Source: Stieleria varia (GTDB lineage: Bacteria; Planctomycetota; Planctomycetia; Pirellulales; Pirellulaceae). Taken from it: a DNA stretch of 64,000 bases. Positions 48,954 to 57,352 of the stretch are shown here, piece by piece. The translations under genes and the position numbers were made by a program. The notes beneath the pieces are model-generated. The model did not search any database. It was not told the origin of the DNA and was given only the letters and a program-made list of their open reading frames with translations. The first letter of the stretch is position 1. Each line of letters starts with the position of its first letter. The DNA is taken from NCBI RefSeq assembly GCF_038443385.1, contig NZ_CP151726.1, positions 3,348,001 to 3,412,000 of the forward strand, in the 5' to 3' direction.

Positions 48954-51900
48954 CTAGCGTTTGAGGAACAACTCGTCCAGGTTCAGCATCACGTTGGCCA
49001 CGAGGGTCCATGCGGCGTACTCGATCGGGTCTTGACCTGGCTCCAGCGGTCCCAACGGATCAGCGGACATCTTGATCGCTTGCACTGGATCAGCCAAGTA
49101 ACGCTCCATCGCTTGGTCGACCAACTCCTTCAATCGCTCCATCTCCGCGTCACTGGGCTGGCGGATCAAGCAGGTTTGGAAAGCGAAGCGGATTCGTTCA
49201 TCCGGTGTTTCTCCTGCCTGGACCATTCGACGTGCCAATGCCTGGGCGGCTTCGATGTAAACCGGATCGTTCAGCGTCACCAAAGCCTGCAGCGGTGTAT
49301 TGGTGCGGATCCGCCGAACAGTACAGACTTCGCGGTTCGGCGCGTCGAACTGTGCCATCGACGGATACGGACTACTACGTCGCCACGTGGTGTAGATCCC
49401 ACGTCGGAACTTGTCTTCGCCTCGACTGGTTTTCCAGTCCGTTCCCGAGCCAAAGGCGGCTTTCAATCCCAGTTCTGGCTGAGGCGGATTGACCGGCGGA
49501 CCGAACATCTTTGCGCTCAACAAGCCGCTGACCGCCAAGGCTTGGTCACGCACCATCTCGGCCGAGACGCGGAAACGTGGGCCACGTGACAGCAAGCGGT
49601 TGGAGGGATCCATGGCTTGTCGCTCCGGACTTGTCACCGAGCTTTGCCGATAGGTCGCGGACGTCACCATCAGTCGCAGCATGTGTTTCAGATCCCAGCC
49701 GCTTTCTTGCAACTCGACGGCCAGCCAGTCCAGCAGCTCGGGATGCGTAGGCAGCTCGCCCTGCGAACCGAATTCTTCGCTGGTCTCGACGATTCCGATG
49801 CCAAAAAGTTGCTCCCAGTGACGATTGACGATCACGCGAGCGGTCAGCGGATTGGCCGGATCGACCAACCAGCGAGCCAGATCCAGTCGGCTGGGGTTGT
49901 CTGCATGATCGAGCGGATGAAATGCTGCCGGGGTGCCTTCACTGACTTCGTCTCCCGTGCTTTGGTAGTTGCCGCGAAGTTGAATGTTGGTCACGCGATG
50001 TTTTTCGGGCGGCAGTTGCTCCATCACGGGAACGCTCGTGTAGGGTTTCATCTCCGACAATTGTTTCCGCGTTTTCGCAAGTTCCGCTCGCTGAGGAGCC
50101 AACAGCTCGGTGACACTACGAAAGTGTTTTTCCACGGTGGCGTGTTGTTCATCGGTCCATGCTGTCCGATCGGCGCGAACCAATTGCCGGACGCTCTCCG
50201 GCATGGCTGCCCAATGGGTCACGTTTGCATCATCGGTCCACTCGATGCGGAAATGATCCAACGTGTGTTCTGTGTGCACGGATGCTTGATTCAGCTTTAA
50301 CGTCAGGGTACCGTCAGCCAACTGGATCGGCTGACGGAGCAGCAACGTCAATTCGTGCGGTTGATCGGGTTGCGGCGCGACGGCCCAGCCGGCCTTGGTG
50401 TTCGGCTTGGCATCCAAAACGCTTTCGGCAGGAAAACCGTCTTGACTGAAGTCCGCGTGTGCGGTGGCGAAGACCAACTGACGCGCGCCGTCGAGCGAGA
50501 ACTCGTGTTTTTCCTTGGCCTTTTTCACCGGCTCCGATTGCCAGAGGACGCCACGATCCTCGCCGAGCAATTGGATCTGAAAACCGTTGAGACGTTCGAA
50601 CATCGAGCCGGCATTGTCGCTGCGGTTCCATACCACGATTTGATCCAGTGGTAACGTGCTGCCCAAATCGATCTCGATCCACGGATTCGCTTCGGTCTTG
50701 CTGTGTGTCACGGAGTTCTTTTGGAAATCCCCGTCCGTGTTCCCGTCATTCGCACGATTCGCTGGCGCGTTGTAGTCGGTGGAACTCTGAGTGGCTTTGC
50801 CTTTGGTAGCGACGTTCTCGCCGTTCTGAAAGGCTTGAATCTCGGCGACGTGCAAAATGCGATCTTTGCCTGGCAACTCCAAACGGACAAACCGGGCTTC
50901 GACCGCTTGAGCTTTCGCGGGTTTCCAACTCGCGGTGACTTGGGACAGCACAAAGTTTTGTTTGCTGGCCTGATCCACGCTCAGCTTGATCGCCGACAAC
51001 GACGATTCGGTTGTCTCGGTTTGAATCGTGTACGTATCGTTATTGGGCTCTTCGCCCACAGCCATGATCCATCCGTTCTCACCGATCTCCAGTTGACGGT
51101 GTTGAGATTGAGCCGACGTGGGAGTGGCGACTCGCCAATCGGGTTGGACCGAGAGTTGGGCGAGCCACTGGTTCAACGCTTGTGTGAGGGTTTCGTTGGG
51201 CGAGGAGATCTCTGTTTCCAGCTCAGCGATGCGTTGTTCCCAGTCCGATTTTTGTTGAATCTGTTCGTCGGACCACAATTGCAACAGGGGGCTTTCGTCA
51301 CGGCGGTCGGCATCGGCGGTGCTGTTAAAGAACGCGTAGAATCGAAAATACTCTTCTTGCGTGATCGGGTCGTACTTGTGCGTGTGGCATTGGGCGCACG
51401 CCATCGTCGTGCCCATCCAAGTCGCCATGGTCGTATTGACTCGGTCGACGACGGCAACGTTGCGAAACTCTTCGTCGTTCGTTCCGCCTTCGTTATTGGT
51501 CAGCGTATTGCGATGAAATGCGGTGGCGATGATTTGATCGTTGGTCGGCTCGGGCAACAAGTCGCCGGCGATCTGTTCGATCGTGAATTGATCAAACGGC
51601 TTGTTCTCGTTGAGCGATCGGATCACGTAGTCTCGGTACGACCAAATGGTTCGCGCGGGGTCGTCTGCGTATCCAGCCGAGTCGGCATAGCGTGCCAAAT
51701 CCAACCAGACGCGTGCCCAGCGTTCGCCGAACGCGGGTTTGCGGAGCAAGGCGTCGACGTAGCGTTCATAGGCGCCAGGCTCTTCGTCCTGGACAAAGGC
51801 TTGAGCCTCTGTCCAAGTTGGCGGTAGTCCCGTCAAGTCGATTGCGACTCGACGGGCGAGGGTCAGTCGATCGGCCGTCGGCTCGGGGTGCAAGCCTTCG

Positions 51901-52388
51901 GATTCGAGTTTGGCCAAGACAAAGTGGTCGATCGGGTTGATGATCCACTCGGTCTGCTTTACTTCTGGCAAAGCCGCACGGGTCGGAGGTTCATACGACC
52001 AATGCTTTGCAAACTTTGCTCCTTGTCGGATCCAATCGGCGAGCAATTGAATCTCGTCGGGATCGAGCGGTTTGCCTTTCTCGCCAGGCGGCATGACGAC
52101 ATCGGGATCATCGGACGTGATCCGCGCCATCAGCTCACTGGCGTCTGGATCTCCGGCGACGATCGCGGCGTATCCGCCCAAGTCTTCGGTGGCCCCGTCG
52201 GCAGTGTCTAAACGCAGTCCCGCCGCCCGCTCGGCTTCATCCGGTCCGTGACATGTGATGCAATTGCTGAAAAGAATCGGTCGGATGTCTCGATTGAAAT
52301 CGATGCTGGATTGGTCAGCGAACGTGGTTTGGCCGGAAAGGGCAGATGTGATGATGCAAGCGATCGCGAGCGTCGTGAATCGTTTCAT
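48954..52388 (-). CDS. PSCyt1-DUF1549-DUF1553 (PSD1) planctomycete protein
   Basis: A 1144-residue exported protein of a family largely found in planctomycetes. The signal peptide (about 1-24, ending TTFA) is followed by a cytochrome-like PSCyt1 domain with the haem motif NCITCHG, then DUF1549 ([33 protein letters not shown]) and a C-terminal DUF1553 ([20 protein letters not shown]). An F5/8 type C (discoidin-like) module lies between (about 540-680, around [20 protein letters not shown]), which suggests binding to polysaccharide. The usual DUF1501 partner gene does not follow. The physiological role of the family is unknown, though a link to polysaccharide use has been proposed. I chose ATG 52388. 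Confidence 0.9.
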
Positions 52389-52503
52389 GGGGGGGACGCG
52401 GGGTGACTCGATGAGAGGCGGTCGGTGGGTAGCCGTCCATTGTAGCTCATCGAGCTGCCGCAAGCGGCTTGTTGATCGAATCGGGGATCGGAATTTGACG
52501 CGT

Positions 52504-54705
52504 CTATCGCATGTCGATGTGGTAGCGGTGGCAGGTCACGCAGTGGTCGCCGGCGGCGGTGGGGAGGTGACACGCCGTACAGGCTTGCTTGGTCAGCGGG
52601 TGGAAATCGACCAGCGCCTGTGGCTGTGTGTTGATGACGTGGCAATGCTGACAATCCCCCAGTTGAGAAACATTCAAGTGCGGGCGATGGGAAAACTTTG
52701 TGAACTCGCTTTTTCGTCCCACCAACGAGGCTGCCCGCCATTGTCCAGGCATCGAAAGCGAGTTCGGATGGCAAGCGATGCAGGCGGCGACGGACGGGTG
52801 CTCGGCGGCCTGCACGCGGATCGGGTCCGTTTTTGCAAGTTGCGCCAGCGTATCGATCCAAGCCACCAAGACAGGATCCGCGTGCCCTGATCCTCGATAG
52901 ACGATCGCCATGCGCAAGTCGTCATGATACCAGCCGCCTGCGGAAACCAAATCGTGAGGTTGACGGACCTGTGGCGTTTTGTCCGACAATGTCGAGTCGG
53001 CTGCGAGCGGGTCCTCCAACAACGCATCTTCAATCAACGCATCGCCCAAGGGTTCGCCCAGCAAGCCATCCTCGTTCAGCAAGCCGTCGCCGCCAACCAG
53101 CACGTCATCAGCCAGCACGTCATCAGCCAGCACGTCGCCAGCCAGCACGTCGTCAGCCAAGAGAGCGTCACCGCCGAGTGAATCACTGCTGGGGGAATCA
53201 TCCAACAGCAGGTCGTCCGGCTGCCAGTTGACCCTGAGGATCGTTCGCGAGGGAAATCGCTCGTGCGGCGCAAGGCTGGCTGCGTCCGTGCTCAACGGCT
53301 GAGGATCATCGAGGAACCATTTGTCATAGATCGCTTGGATGAACTGTGGAGGCAACGAGCGTAGGATCGGCAGCGTTGACGCCGGCGCGGCACCACCGCT
53401 GCGGACCCGCTGAGTCCAGTCGGCTTGACCTTCACTGGCAAAGGACAGCATCATTGCTTGCAACTGCGTCGCGATCGTCAGGGCGGCCGAGTCCGAGACG
53501 CTGGAGTCGGGACGTAACTTGGAGAAATCGCCATCGGGGACATTGCGGATCGCGCGTGCGGCAGATTCATCACCACGCAGCAAGAGCTGAGCGAGCGGTG
53601 AAAGTCGACCGTCGTAAAACCCCGTCGCGTTCTCCGGCCACCCAGCCACTTTTTTGGAAACCCGCTGAGGCACGATCGGCAGCGATGCCAATTCGATTCC
53701 GCTGGCGACTTGGATGTCCAGAGATTGATCGTGGCAACTCGCGCAGGCTTGTTCGTAGCTGGCCGTTCTCAGCAGTTCGCCGCCGAGCGAACGAGCGTTG
53801 GCCAAGGTTGCCGTATTGGAATCGTTTTGTGACGGGTGGCACTTGCCACAGGCAAAAACCGTTGCGGTGCCATCAACCAATGTAGCAGGAAAGTGTTTTC
53901 CGGCGTGTGTTGCGTGATTGAAAGCGATCTCCCCACCGCGTCCGTACGGCCAGCTTTTCCAATCGGGGTGCGATGCGGCAAAGCCGCCGAAATCGCGTGA
54001 GTGACAGGTTTGGCATTGCGCATCAGACAACGCCATCATGTCGGCCTCAGCGCCCCGGTGTTCTTTGTGGCACGTCGCACATTGAATGTTGTCTTGATCC
54101 AGTGAAGTCTTTGTCCAGCGAGAATCGTTGACGGGATTACCGGATTCCAAGGAAGTCAGCCGGATTCGTTCGCTGCGGTTTTGGCGTTCGACCGATGGCA
54201 GATTGTGTGCCATCGTAGCCAGGTCACGATCCATCGTGGAGTGATGGCAATCCATACAACGATCGGTCTGCAGCACGTTTTCGTGCCCGGAGCCGGCGGC
54301 GGACGAGAACCAAGCTGAGATCGACAGCGCATCGGGTTCATGGCACGCGGCACAACGCTGACTGGTGAGCGTGCCGGAAAGGATTTGCGCGTGCGGTTGG
54401 GTCAACTCACCGGGTTTCATCACCGAGGGCAGCAACCAATGTTGGTTTGCCACAATCAAAACCATGCAGAACGTGGCCAGGCAGACCACAGCGATCCGAC
54501 GACGCCAACCCGCCCAGCTTCGCCGTGGTTTGCATGCCGGGAAGACAGGGCATCGGCCGTCTCGACTCGGGCCGTGAGCGCATTGTGGCAGTTCACGCTT
54601 CGCGTCTTTGCCGCATTTCTGATCGCAGACACGCCCGCACGTCCAGCGATCGTTGGGACGATCCCGTTTGGGGTTTTGCGGCAGGCTCAGTTCTTCGCGT
54701 CTCAT
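52504..54705 (-). CDS. Membrane-anchored deca-haem c-type cytochrome
   Basis: A 733-residue protein with ten CxxCH haem motifs: CAACH, CMDCH, CATCH, CQTCH, CGKCH, CASCH, CIACH, CQHCH, CTACH and CVTCH. A membrane segment (about 70-87) anchors it, with the haem part outside the cytoplasm. The cytoplasmic first 60 residues contain six Cys (C23, C27, C31, C42, C52, C58), a possible metal site. Between haems six and seven lies an acidic repeat region (about 497-572, LADDVLAGDVLADD). It is the third gene of the operon, 7 bases after the cytochrome b-like gene. Role: electron acceptor or donor outside the cytoplasmic membrane. Confidence 0.88.
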   Translation of the reverse strand: MRREELSLPQNPKRDRPNDRWTCGRVCDQKCGKDAKRELPQCAHGPSRDGRCPVFPACKPRRSWAGWRRRIAVVCLATFCMVLIVANQHWLLPSVMKPGELTQPHAQILSGTLTSQRCAACHEPDALSISAWFSSAAGSGHENVLQTDRCMDCHHSTMDRDLATMAHNLPSVERQNRSERIRLTSLESGNPVNDSRWTKTSLDQDNIQCATCHKEHRGAEADMMALSDAQCQTCHSRDFGGFAASHPDWKSWPYGRGGEIAFNHATHAGKHFPATLVDGTATVFACGKCHPSQNDSNTATLANARSLGGELLRTASYEQACASCHDQSLDIQVASGIELASLPIVPQRVSKKVAGWPENATGFYDGRLSPLAQLLLRGDESAARAIRNVPDGDFSKLRPDSSVSDSAALTIATQLQAMMLSFASEGQADWTQRVRSGGAAPASTLPILRSLPPQFIQAIYDKWFLDDPQPLSTDAASLAPHERFPSRTILRVNWQPDDLLLDDSPSSDSLGGDALLADDVLAGDVLADDVLADDVLVGGDGLLNEDGLLGEPLGDALIEDALLEDPLAADSTLSDKTPQVRQPHDLVSAGGWYHDDLRMAIVYRGSGHADPVLVAWIDTLAQLAKTDPIRVQAAEHPSVAACIACHPNSLSMPGQWRAASLVGRKSEFTKFSHRPHLNVSQLGDCQHCHVINTQPQALVDFHPLTKQACTACHLPTAAGDHCVTCHRYHIDMR
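53098..53157. repeat. 15-base tandem repeat inside the deca-haem cytochrome gene
   Basis: Four consecutive 15-base units, CAGCACGTCATCAGC (twice), CAGCACGTCGCCAGC and CAGCACGTCGTCAGC, encode the LADDV-type acidic repeats on the minus strand. The frame is preserved, so length variation between strains is possible. Confidence 0.85.
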
Positions 54706-54712
54706 CGCTGGT

Positions 54713-55534
54713 CTATTGAATGAATCGGAATGCCATTACGGCATGGACGACGGATGCGGCGATCAAGGCAACCGAGAACACACCGTGGATGACCAGCCAG
54801 AGACGCAATCGCAGTTGCAGTGCGAACTGGTAATCGAGATCGTCGCGTTGACGGATCAGCGCAGCCAGTTTGCCGGCGGTGCGTCGGCCGTCGTCTTCCA
54901 AGTAACGATCCAGTTCTTTCAGATCGCCCAACAGCCGACGTCGTCGAATTCCATTTGGAAACAGCACGTAGCTGATCGATGGGCGTCGCCCAAAGAAAGA
55001 CGTCAAATAGGTTTTGTAAAACAGGGGCAAGACGTCGCCGGCGATCATCGACTCGTCGGCAGAAAGCGTCGACGCGGCGGTCTCGGCGATCTGACAACGA
55101 TGCCAACCCATTTGATCAAACCGATGCTGTCCTTCCACCGCCGTCAGGCGTCTGGGCAGGGTGCGACTGGCGTACAAACCGTAAAAGCCACTTGCCGAAA
55201 CCAGCAAGAACAGCAGTGACAAACCACACTCAAACACGCCTCCGGCAACAAACGCCGGAACATGCATGATGTAGACCGCCGAGCAAAAGATGCCGACGTA
55301 AATATGGACCTGAGTCCAAGTGCTGACGCTGCCCAGCGGCAGGATCGGCAATCGACGGCGAAATCCGATCAACATCAACAAGAACAGACAGGCCAGGATC
55401 GTCGAACCGGTCATCACCGAAGCGTTGAACAGCCGATCGTTGAGCCAACGATAGATGATGTAGCAAACGGCGATGGCAGCCAGCGTGATCGACAGTCCGA
55501 TCACGCGTCGTGTCCTGAGATGAAGCTGATTCAT
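54713..55534 (-). CDS. Five-helix membrane protein, probable dihaem cytochrome b
   Basis: A 273-residue integral membrane protein with hydrophobic segments at about 11-29, 43-58, 72-95, 103-122 and 246-268. H77 and H91 lie in the third helix and H250 and H264 in the fifth, both pairs 14 residues apart. This is the bis-histidine spacing of the two haems in cytochrome b of the bc1 complex. A soluble loop of about 125 residues (122-245) separates helices four and five. It probably carries electrons across the membrane between the iron-sulfur protein encoded just upstream (4-base gap) and the deca-haem cytochrome downstream (7-base gap). I know no named family for it; the haem prediction is an inference. 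Confidence 0.7.
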   Translation of the reverse strand: MNQLHLRTRRVIGLSITLAAIAVCYIIYRWLNDRLFNASVMTGSTILACLFLLMLIGFRRRLPILPLGSVSTWTQVHIYVGIFCSAVYIMHVPAFVAGGVFECGLSLLFLLVSASGFYGLYASRTLPRRLTAVEGQHRFDQMGWHRCQIAETAASTLSADESMIAGDVLPLFYKTYLTSFFGRRPSISYVLFPNGIRRRRLLGDLKELDRYLEDDGRRTAGKLAALIRQRDDLDYQFALQLRLRLWLVIHGVFSVALIAASVVHAVMAFRFIQ

Positions 55535-55537
55535 TCT

Positions 55538-57352
55538 TTAGCTCCGACGCTCCAACCAAGTCGTCAACGGCGGGGATTCCGACAAGTCGATTCGCACCAG
55601 CGCGTCGTGCGGGCAAGCGGCGGCGCATGCCGGGCCACTTGGCGAACTTTCGCACATGTCACACTTCGTCGCCTTGCGAATCGCCTTGCCACTGTCGGTG
55701 TCGGTGTAAGCGCGGCCGCTGGCATCAAAGACGTCCGCCATCTTGATGTTCTCGTAGGGGCATGCCGCAGCGCAAACACCACAGCCGACACAGATGGGTT
55801 CGTGGATCGAAACGACGCCCGTCGTCTTGCTGCGACTGATCGCTCCGGTGGGGCATCCGATCATGCAAACCGGATCGGTACAGTGCATGCACGACTGTAC
55901 GAACTGCAATCGATCGTACTTGACGCCCTGACGTGCGAATCGCGGATTGCCGTCGTGCACGCTCGCACAGGCTTTCACGCAATCATCACATCGCGTACAG
56001 CGGTGCAAATCAACCACCATTGCTTGACGACCGTTGTTGAGGCGATTCTGAACAATGAACTCCAGCAATCCTGTGGATTCGAACGTTGCACCGGACGCAT
56101 GCTGGACGTCTTCATCGATCGGTGAGTTCTGGTTTCGTCGCTCGCTGCGCCGACGCTCGGTGCGTTTCTCGGTGAACCGAGTCATGATTTCTGCCGCGGA
56201 CTCCGGCAATTCGCTCTTGCGGACGTGCGGCAGGATATCGTGCGCAAACGTCTCGACCGGGATGGTGATGGCGTCCAAGAAACCGACGGCGCGTAGCGAG
56301 TTCTCAAGCCGACGGGGCGGCAAGGATTGATCCCGCAGCGAGTTGTACGCGATCTCATCGAGACCAAAGATATGTCCGGCGCCCAAGTAGGCCGTTGTTC
56401 GGTGTCCTGCACCGTGCTGCTGAGACATTCGAGCAAAGCCGCTGCGAACGATCACCAGCTCCGTCGGCATGTTGCCTTCCGTGGCAACCAATGGTTCGGA
56501 TTCGATCTGTGCAGCGGCGGGCAGAGTACGAGTCTTTTTGTAGTCGGCATTCCACTCCATACGTCCGTAGGATCGCAATTGGGTGGCCGCAATCACGTTC
56601 TGCAGGTTCTGTTCGGGCAGGTGACGCAGCAGGGGCAGCTCTTTCAAGTGCACGGGCAGCCAGTGCGTTCGGTAGTGCGATTCCAATGTATCGGCAAAGC
56701 CTTTGTCTCTCCGCATCACCCTCAAGCCTTGCCAACGGATCTCCAGCAAAGTGGCTTCGGTGGTCGCGATCACGGTGGCGGTTCGAGGCGAACGGTACAT
56801 CGCAGCGACTTCGCCGAACAACTCGCCGGGTCCCAAGGACACCGTATCGTTTGCACGCAGGACGGCGTCAAAATCCTGCAAGAACACCGCTGGGCGATCA
56901 TCGACCTGACGGATCGTTTGCTCCGTTGTTTCCTTGCCCCCGGGGGATCGAGGTGTGATTTGCGAGACAGAGCGTGTTTCGGGGAAGGGCGACGGCCATA
57001 GAAAACGTTTCAACGCGTCACCCCAGCTCATCGGCGGCTCGGGCGTGCGTCCAAGTTGCTCGGGTGACAATGCGTGAGCAACCACGGAGACTTCGCCCGC
57101 TATCACCAAGAACGCGCTGTTGCCGTAGTCTCCCTCGCGAACAATGATCTCACCCGGCTCGCAACGGTTCAGCCGACAGTCGTACTTGAGCACTCCGTCC
57201 AGCGGGATGGAACGCGGAAATGACGCCGGATCCATGCGGTTGAACGGTCCACGCGAGCGCAGCCACGAGACGTCGGCATCGGTCATCGACGCGTCCAGCG
57301 GTTCGTCCCAGCGACTGGGACGCTGCACGGGTATGGTTTGCAATCGTTCCAT
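55538..57352 (-). CDS. Cyclic-nucleotide-binding-domain / 4x[4Fe-4S] ferredoxin fusion
   Basis: A 604-residue soluble protein. The first cNMP-binding domain (about 50-230) has EPGEIIVREGDYGNSAFLVI and the phosphate-binding cassette GELFGEVAAMYRSPRTATVI, with a 70-residue insert. A second CRP-like fold (about 270-395) lacks the cassette Arg and looks degenerate. The C-terminal 160 residues carry sixteen Cys in four ferredoxin sets: CTRCDDCVKAC, CMHCTDPVCMIGCP, CVGCGVCAAACP and CDMC/CAAACP, as in HybA/DmsB-type electron-transfer subunits. No signal peptide, so probably cytoplasmic. First gene of a three-gene redox operon. I chose ATG 57352. Confidence 0.88.
   Translation of the reverse strand: MERLQTIPVQRPSRWDEPLDASMTDADVSWLRSRGPFNRMDPASFPRSIPLDGVLKYDCRLNRCEPGEIIVREGDYGNSAFLVIAGEVSVVAHALSPEQLGRTPEPPMSWGDALKRFLWPSPFPETRSVSQITPRSPGGKETTEQTIRQVDDRPAVFLQDFDAVLRANDTVSLGPGELFGEVAAMYRSPRTATVIATTEATLLEIRWQGLRVMRRDKGFADTLESHYRTHWLPVHLKELPLLRHLPEQNLQNVIAATQLRSYGRMEWNADYKKTRTLPAAAQIESEPLVATEGNMPTELVIVRSGFARMSQQHGAGHRTTAYLGAGHIFGLDEIAYNSLRDQSLPPRRLENSLRAVGFLDAITIPVETFAHDILPHVRKSELPESAAEIMTRFTEKRTERRRSERRNQNSPIDEDVQHASGATFESTGLLEFIVQNRLNNGRQAMVVDLHRCTRCDDCVKACASVHDGNPRFARQGVKYDRLQFVQSCMHCTDPVCMIGCPTGAISRSKTTGVVSIHEPICVGCGVCAAACPYENIKMADVFDASGRAYTDTDSGKAIRKATKCDMCESSPSGPACAAACPHDALVRIDLSESPPLTTWLERRS

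Follow-up and report, generated by a model that had tools for sequence, protein, structure and literature searches.

A conserved planctomycete gene trio that may form a cyclic-nucleotide-modulated transmembrane electron conduit

What could a bacterium gain by placing the gene for a soluble protein with cyclic nucleoside monophosphate (cNMP)-binding domains and a ferredoxin module directly before genes for a membrane protein and a ten-haem cytochrome c? The question is raised by three genes on the minus strand of Stieleria varia, at positions 52504-57352 of the window, the 64 kb stretch of the 9.72 Mb single-contig genome that we studied. Gene 1 (55538..57352, minus strand; 604 aa from the ATG at 57352), gene 2 (54713..55534, minus strand; 273 aa) and gene 3 (52504..54705, minus strand; 733 aa) encode proteins 1, 2 and 3. 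A preliminary description, made from the letters of the DNA, had placed a three-gene unit here, in agreement with the open reading frames and Pfam matches; of the gaps of 4 and 7 bases that it gave, the second is correct (between genes 2 and 3), while the first is in reality 3 bases (between genes 1 and 2). An alternative TTG lies one codon upstream of the ATG of gene 1, and residues of protein 1 are numbered from this TTG (P0001). On the evidence set out below, we think it fairly probable that the three proteins make up the inner-membrane core of a transmembrane conduit for electrons, linked to NAD(P)H and modulated by a cyclic nucleotide.

Relatives of protein 1 were found in 44 of 294 genomes across the phylum (E≤1e-30) and in 83 of 149 genomes of the family (E≤1e-40), the Stieleria varia genome being counted in both. 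We surveyed 87 loci (denoted by L and a number), each with a protein 1 relative: the window, 40 places from the phylum search, 6 further loci and 40 of the about 100 places listed by the family search, picked mainly for long contigs. Other stretches of the window's own genome (L110-L112) are excluded from this set. The loci are partly non-independent, as some genomes contribute two and some genera several; protein 1 is identical in L011 and L115. The preliminary description had named beforehand a finding that would refute its proposal, namely that the three genes are not conserved together. In 76 of the 87 loci, window counted, the three genes share a strand within 9 kb, and a chance neighbourhood was rejected on this ground. 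The commonest orders are 1-2-3 alone (30 loci) and, with partner genes discussed below, reductase-tetrahaem-1-2-3 (8); further orders are 2-3-tetrahaem-NuoEF-1 (6) and pentahaem-barrel-reductase-tetrahaem-1-2-3 (5, plus variants). As a unit, the trio is conserved and widely distributed in planctomycetes. The only non-planctomycete locus met in this survey, drawn from Planctomycetota, is L013, where the trio stands on a 4.5 kb contig of a Methylococcaceae metagenome-assembled genome, which may reflect transfer or bin contamination.

A tree of protein 1 was built by a quick method, midpoint rooted and with the Shimodaira-Hasegawa-like approximate likelihood ratio test (SH-aLRT) in place of a bootstrap, from 86 of the 87 rows (>350 residues); L071 was excluded, its protein 1 being split over two frames. 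The tree separates two clades of 28 and 58 rows, each with SH-aLRT 100. The window's protein groups with Stieleria and other Pirellulaceae rows, in a subclade of 30 Pirellulaceae rows.

Protein 1 consists of two cNMP-binding domains and a four-cluster [4Fe-4S] ferredoxin module, and no membrane segment is expected. It scores 73 bits against Pfam cNMP_binding (PF00027; cut-off 27.5), and several Fer4-type (4Fe-4S) Pfam models are above cut-off. The ferredoxin region (55586..56023, minus strand), nearest to HycB/HydN/NrfC/DsrO-type proteins, contains 16 cysteines (Cys453-Cys581), the number reported in the preliminary description, and every one of them is kept in 87 of 87 aligned rows, window included. 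Among the 60 solved relatives listed (of 75 at E≤0.01), the best are of two kinds: subunits of the four-cluster ferredoxin type, for instance HycB3, and those parts of cyclic-nucleotide-dependent kinases that bind the nucleotide. The phosphate-binding cassette of the first cNMP domain (FGEVAAMYRSPRTATV; 56771..56818, minus strand) is intact. Its Glu182 and Arg191, which we take to be the phosphate-binding residues, are kept in 86 and 82 of the 87 aligned rows (window included), respectively, and we therefore rejected the idea that this domain is a decayed relic. Two cNMP domains had been proposed and two are there, yet the cassette is intact in the first only; the matching stretch of the second, FGLDEIAYNSL (56336..56368, minus strand), is degenerate in the window's clade. 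Judged by a simple pattern, 27 of the 87 rows have an intact second cassette and 60 a degenerate one, the window belonging to the latter. A decayed second site beside a strictly kept first one is the pattern to expect of a protein that uses a single nucleotide site. Judged by its residues, the cyclic-nucleotide site of the first cNMP domain looks intact.

Protein 2 is a membrane protein with the two histidine pairs noted in the preliminary description, His77/91 and His250/264 (spacings 14 and 14), and all four residues are kept in 76 of 76 aligned rows. Helices are present in its structure model (mean predicted local distance difference test (pLDDT) score 71.0), and hydrophobic segments in its relatives. 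The Pfam matches to DUF4405, Ferric_reduct and Ni_hydr_CYTB are sub-threshold; the cytochrome b561/Ni-hydrogenase cytochrome b model (PF01292) gives 13.1 bits against a cut-off of 30.1, and reaches E≤0.01 in 1 of 20 members of the protein 2 family. A PDB profile search returned 18 weak matches (best E 0.036), many of them coiled coils. From its conserved histidines, protein 2 is a probable di-haem b subunit.

In other complexes, b subunits with two haems often react with quinones, and another role can be proposed for the trio: protein 2 would exchange electrons with the quinone pool, either the ten-haem or the Fe-S (iron-sulphur) protein would serve as one of the two substrates, in the way suggested for CbcL-type proteins, and the cNMP domain would regulate the exchange. 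The weak similarity of protein 2 to Ni_hydr_CYTB and Ferric_reduct speaks for such a complex, as does CbcL itself, whose putatively di-haem b part and nine c-haem motifs are proposed, in the portion of the report available to us, to form a quinol oxidase (PMC6295460). CbcL as described in that portion, however, includes neither a separate four-cluster cytoplasmic Fe-S protein nor linked NAD(P)H modules; no quinone site was identified in the trio, none having been sought, and we consider a quinone-linked complex unlikely, if still a serious candidate.

The third gene was said to encode a ten-haem cytochrome c, and protein 3 indeed has ten CXXCH motifs and matches Cytochrome_C7 with 40.5 bits (cut-off 24.8). 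The haem-binding region (52528..54354, minus strand) consists of six CXXCH, a long linker and four CXXCH, and N-terminal to it is a hydrophobic stretch, the predicted membrane anchor (54436..54501, minus strand); one hydrophobic segment was counted in most relatives. Ten CXXCH are kept in 71 of 76 gene 3 rows. The other five have 9, 9, 8, 6 and 2, and the low rows include L056 (at a contig end), L013 (with a run of N) and L120, where gene 3 is in pieces, apparently split into several reading frames (L120:5438-7326). The linker (52981-53217, minus strand), between the six and the last four CXXCH, is long, acidic and leucine-rich, with near-tandem repeats (ADDVLAGDVLADDVLADDVL...). The anchor is preceded by a Cys-rich stretch (54532..54639, minus strand) that the preliminary description does not mention. 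It ends in C.HGP...GRC......C.P and may be a cytoplasmic site for a metal or an additional Fe-S cluster; no Pfam match on protein 3 covers it. The pattern was matched in 34 of 76 rows, with variants seen by eye in further ones, and is missing in the closest relatives (L008-L010 and L113). In several relatives the stretch looks doubled.

Where might the electrons come from? Two kinds of flavoprotein gene are linked to gene 1, each in one clade of the tree (raw counts). A NuoE-NuoF fusion occurs near gene 1 only in the 28-row clade, in 15 rows, and in 15 of 15 cases it is directly before gene 1 on the same strand; in this clade the N-terminus of protein 1 is often NuoG-like, with Fer2_4 in 13 and Fer4_Nqo3 in 10 of 27 proteins scanned. 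A reductase with FAD_binding_6, NAD_binding_1 and Fer2 domains occurs only in the 58-row clade, in 18 rows. The swap of one NAD(P)H module for another between clades argues for a partner on the NAD(P)H side. A homologue of the reductase is encoded in the window's own genome (2555031-2556098; 36% identity, E 2e-51), unlinked to the trio. In L070, L074 and L077 NuoEF stands beside gene 1 but genes 2 and 3 are not nearby, and protein 1 and NuoEF of these loci are perhaps a soluble cNMP-bearing NADH diaphorase. An HbpS-like protein (PF03928) is encoded at L077:13251-15419; its family, of which one member was scanned, recurs in many loci, mostly in the NuoEF clade (for example in L060, L075, L076, L080, L082, L137 and L140).

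NuoEF- and FNR-type flavoproteins can work in both directions, and nothing in the sequence fixes the direction of transfer. The trio might then run inward, with periplasmic or extracellular donors reducing ferredoxin or NAD(P)+ in the cytoplasm and the cyclic nucleotide serving as an on-switch. Such uphill transfer would require energy coupling or a low-potential donor, and no ion-pump subunit was found among the Pfam-scanned neighbours (most neighbour families being outside that scan); an inward conduit seems very unlikely to us.

On the outer side, 34 of 87 loci have a gene for a c554-type tetrahaem cytochrome within 9 kb on the same strand, and a homologue (46% identity) lies elsewhere in the window's genome, unlinked to the trio. 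A pentahaem cytochrome is found in 12 of 87 loci, in 12 of 12 beside a second protein of a single family. Two members of this family end in Phe and look barrel-like by eye, and the copy of one relative, which was scanned, had no Pfam or NCBIfam match; we treat the protein as a putative outer-membrane barrel. The pentahaem and barrel pair is also encoded in the window's genome, by overlapping genes unlinked to the trio. For the two pentahaems searched, the sole PDB match better than E 0.01 was cytochrome c552 5ze8 (E 5e-8 and 2e-4), and this partial likeness means that the role of the pentahaem may be enzymatic instead of that of a conduit. The trio would in that case feed a periplasmic nitrogen-oxide or similar reductase, with the linked pentahaem as terminal enzyme; the tetrahaem, too, resembles Nitrosomonas c554 CycA, at 40.7 bits, far below the cut-off of 400. 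Against this, the 5ze8 match is only partial, two pentahaems scanned reached no NCBIfam cut-off, the constant barrel-like neighbour suggests the outer membrane, and few loci contain a pentahaem at all. We judge a periplasmic reductase to be quite improbable as the destination.

The signalling side is represented by class III cyclase genes in 16 of 87 loci (PF00211 was confirmed for 15; L053 was assigned by homology alone). L048, L049 and L082 were not counted, their weak matches being to the C-terminal part of the L079 model only. In L079, 33 bases separate the end of the cyclase reading frame from the gene 1 frame that follows on the same strand; in L012, L045, L114, L117, L125 and L128 the cyclase gene is divergent and adjoins the reductase. 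As a control, PF00211 was searched in 45 genomes, giving 195 matches in about 303 Mb. From this density 0.64 cyclase genes would be expected in 51 loci of the 45 genomes, whereas 10 loci from 6 genera were observed; the Poisson P of 1.7e-9 overstates the linkage, since the loci are related by descent, which weakens this support. Of the two PF00211 proteins encoded in the window's genome, the first is homologous to the linked cyclases (E 7e-69), and its N-terminus looks FHA-like by eye; its gene lies away from the trio. An FHA domain is above cut-off in 6 of 13 cyclases scanned with Pfam. FHA domains are also fused to some protein 1 relatives and some linked reductases (L048:8783-10816, L060:10803-14882, L048:12078-13631 and L049:7477-9012); these fusions suggest an added phosphothreonine control. 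A kinase-like family was recognized by eye in 9 of 46 loci, with a Pfam Pkinase match for one L079 gene.

Such an abundance of signalling domains, on the cyclases, reductases and protein 1 relatives and in the kinase-like family, would also suit a redox sensor, in which the trio is no wire and the state of its haems or clusters is read out through cNMP, FHA and cyclase signalling. A ten-haem cytochrome together with tetrahaem, pentahaem and barrel genes seems far beyond the needs of a sensor, however, and the three window proteins have no Pfam match to a DNA-binding, kinase or GGDEF domain. We give a sensor little credence.

The preferred model, an NAD(P)H-linked conduit under cyclic-nucleotide control, can be put as follows. 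A flavoprotein, encoded next door in many relatives and, as a relative, elsewhere in the window's genome, would take electrons from NAD(P)H and deliver them, in the cytoplasm, to protein 1 with its four [4Fe-4S] clusters. From these clusters electrons would move to the two b haems of protein 2 and on to the ten haems of protein 3 at the outer face of the inner membrane. Protein 3 would hand them to other multihaem carriers: the c554-type tetrahaem and, in some species, the pentahaem with its putative outer-membrane barrel. The linked class III cyclase would probably be the source of the cyclic nucleotide that binds the first cNMP domain and alters docking or transfer. What the sequences show are the genes in their conserved order, the ligand residues kept across the rows, and the genes of the partners; that electrons flow, and which way, that the proteins form a complex, that a nucleotide binds and that it gates the path is what we infer from them, and gating by cAMP in particular is suggested by sequence and gene linkage. 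The electron conduit of the preliminary description is in this sense strengthened in part, by conserved order, cofactor ligands, and the NAD(P)H-type flavoproteins and cyclases beside relatives.

Several observations weigh against this model. Genes 2 and 3 are not nearby in 11 of 87 loci (L047, L070, L074, L075, L077, L079, L081, L139, L140, L141 and L145), and in three of these NuoEF stands next to gene 1, so that protein 1 may work with other partners. In 54 of 87 loci neither kind of flavoprotein gene is present, the linkage of these genes to gene 1 is given as raw counts, and the window's own subclade has neither a linked reductase nor NuoEF; none of the 16 cyclase loci falls in it either. 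At the level of the proteins, the second cNMP site is degenerate in the window's protein 1, and the Arg of the first is absent in 5 of 87 rows (3 His, 1 Ser, 1 gap). The structure model of protein 1 (mean pLDDT 55.5) is too weak for cofactor spacing. Protein 2 passes no curated b-cytochrome model, and a fold search with its structure model gave no match at E≤0.001 among the 50 listed of 281 (E≤10).

More tentatively, in a reading that we hold to be less likely than not, the scattered pieces would join into one complete planctomycete route of NAD(P)H-to-cell-surface electron export, made up of flavoprotein, cNMP-ferredoxin, di-haem b, ten-haem c, tetrahaem, and pentahaem plus barrel. Its first step would be switched allosterically by the nucleotide from a cyclase dedicated to it, which in some species would itself be under FHA control; in the window's genome the gene set is present but scattered. 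Second messengers are known to influence respiration mostly via transcription or phosphorylation. If the proposal is true, a second messenger would directly and allosterically switch a transmembrane electron path, and planctomycetes would gain a candidate pathway that leads from NAD(P)H to the periplasm or further out and has a named component for each step.

A phosphoribosyltransferase gene is the upstream, divergent neighbour of the trio. Past gene 3, at a distance of about 40 bases that assumes a TTG start (the start codon is uncertain), lies a gene for a PSCyt1/PSCyt2/PSD1 protein with an F5/8 type C domain (48954-52463, minus strand), which may be co-transcribed with the trio. No catalytic subunit was seen adjoining the trio within the window, and a search of a plasmid collection gave no match.

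How does the trio compare with known systems? The preliminary description could match it to no named complex, and this held for the NCBIfam models listed (25 of 77 for protein 1, 2 for protein 2 and 5 for protein 3), none of which reached its curated cut-off. Candidates rejected in this way for protein 1 are the QrcC-type Fe-S subunit of Qrc menaquinone reductase (35.7 against a cut-off of 400 bits), NrfC of Nrf (58.8 against 377.6), DsrO of Dsr (56.8 against 200) and HmcB of Hmc (35.7 against 420). The CymA/NapC family was rejected for protein 3 (PF03264, 16.2 against 24.1 bits). Four-cluster ferredoxins of the HycB/HydN/NrfC/DsrO type remain the best likeness of the Fe-S part of protein 1, even though their curated cut-offs are missed by far. 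In the open-licence literature we found no account of a protein that joins a four-cluster ferredoxin to cNMP domains, by which absence in print is not shown, and none of a cyclase tied to a transmembrane multihaem conduit.

The NuoE-NuoF fusion and the NuoG-like N-terminus in the NuoEF clade recall NADH diaphorase modules, the N-terminal part of NuoEFG found in complex I, NAD-linked hydrogenases and formate dehydrogenases. Unlike those modules, the ones of the NuoEF clade are fused and linked to cNMP domains and often linked to a multihaem conduit; the window has no NuoEF. The Tmc, Hmc, Nhc and Ohc complexes of sulfate reducers combine cytoplasmic Fe-S, membrane b-type and periplasmic multihaem c subunits into a transmembrane path, a layout that the trio would have in common with them. 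Their Fe-S subunits are of the HdrD or other types and their b subunits of the NarI type; no HdrD- or NarI-type Pfam match was found to E≤1 on the three proteins (HMMER filters drop most weak hits). To our knowledge none of the four carries a cNMP domain, which the Fe-S protein of the trio does.

Similar in its membrane and haem parts is the CbcL/MtrH/MtoC group, described in the available portion of its report as single polypeptides with six transmembrane helices and a link to electron transfer outside the cell; the b part of CbcL, with its two putative haems, resembles HydC/FdnI, and two CbcL-type homologues are tabulated in Planctomycetes (PMC6295460). As far as that portion goes, a multihaem c part and, if protein 2 is the di-haem subunit that it probably is, a two-haem b part are common to both; CbcL is fused in one protein, whereas the trio has separate b and c genes and, in addition, a four-cluster cNMP-ferredoxin. 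All the modules of the trio are known, and so, from sulfate reducers and in part from CbcL, is the layout of cytoplasmic Fe-S, membrane b and outside multihaem c subunits.

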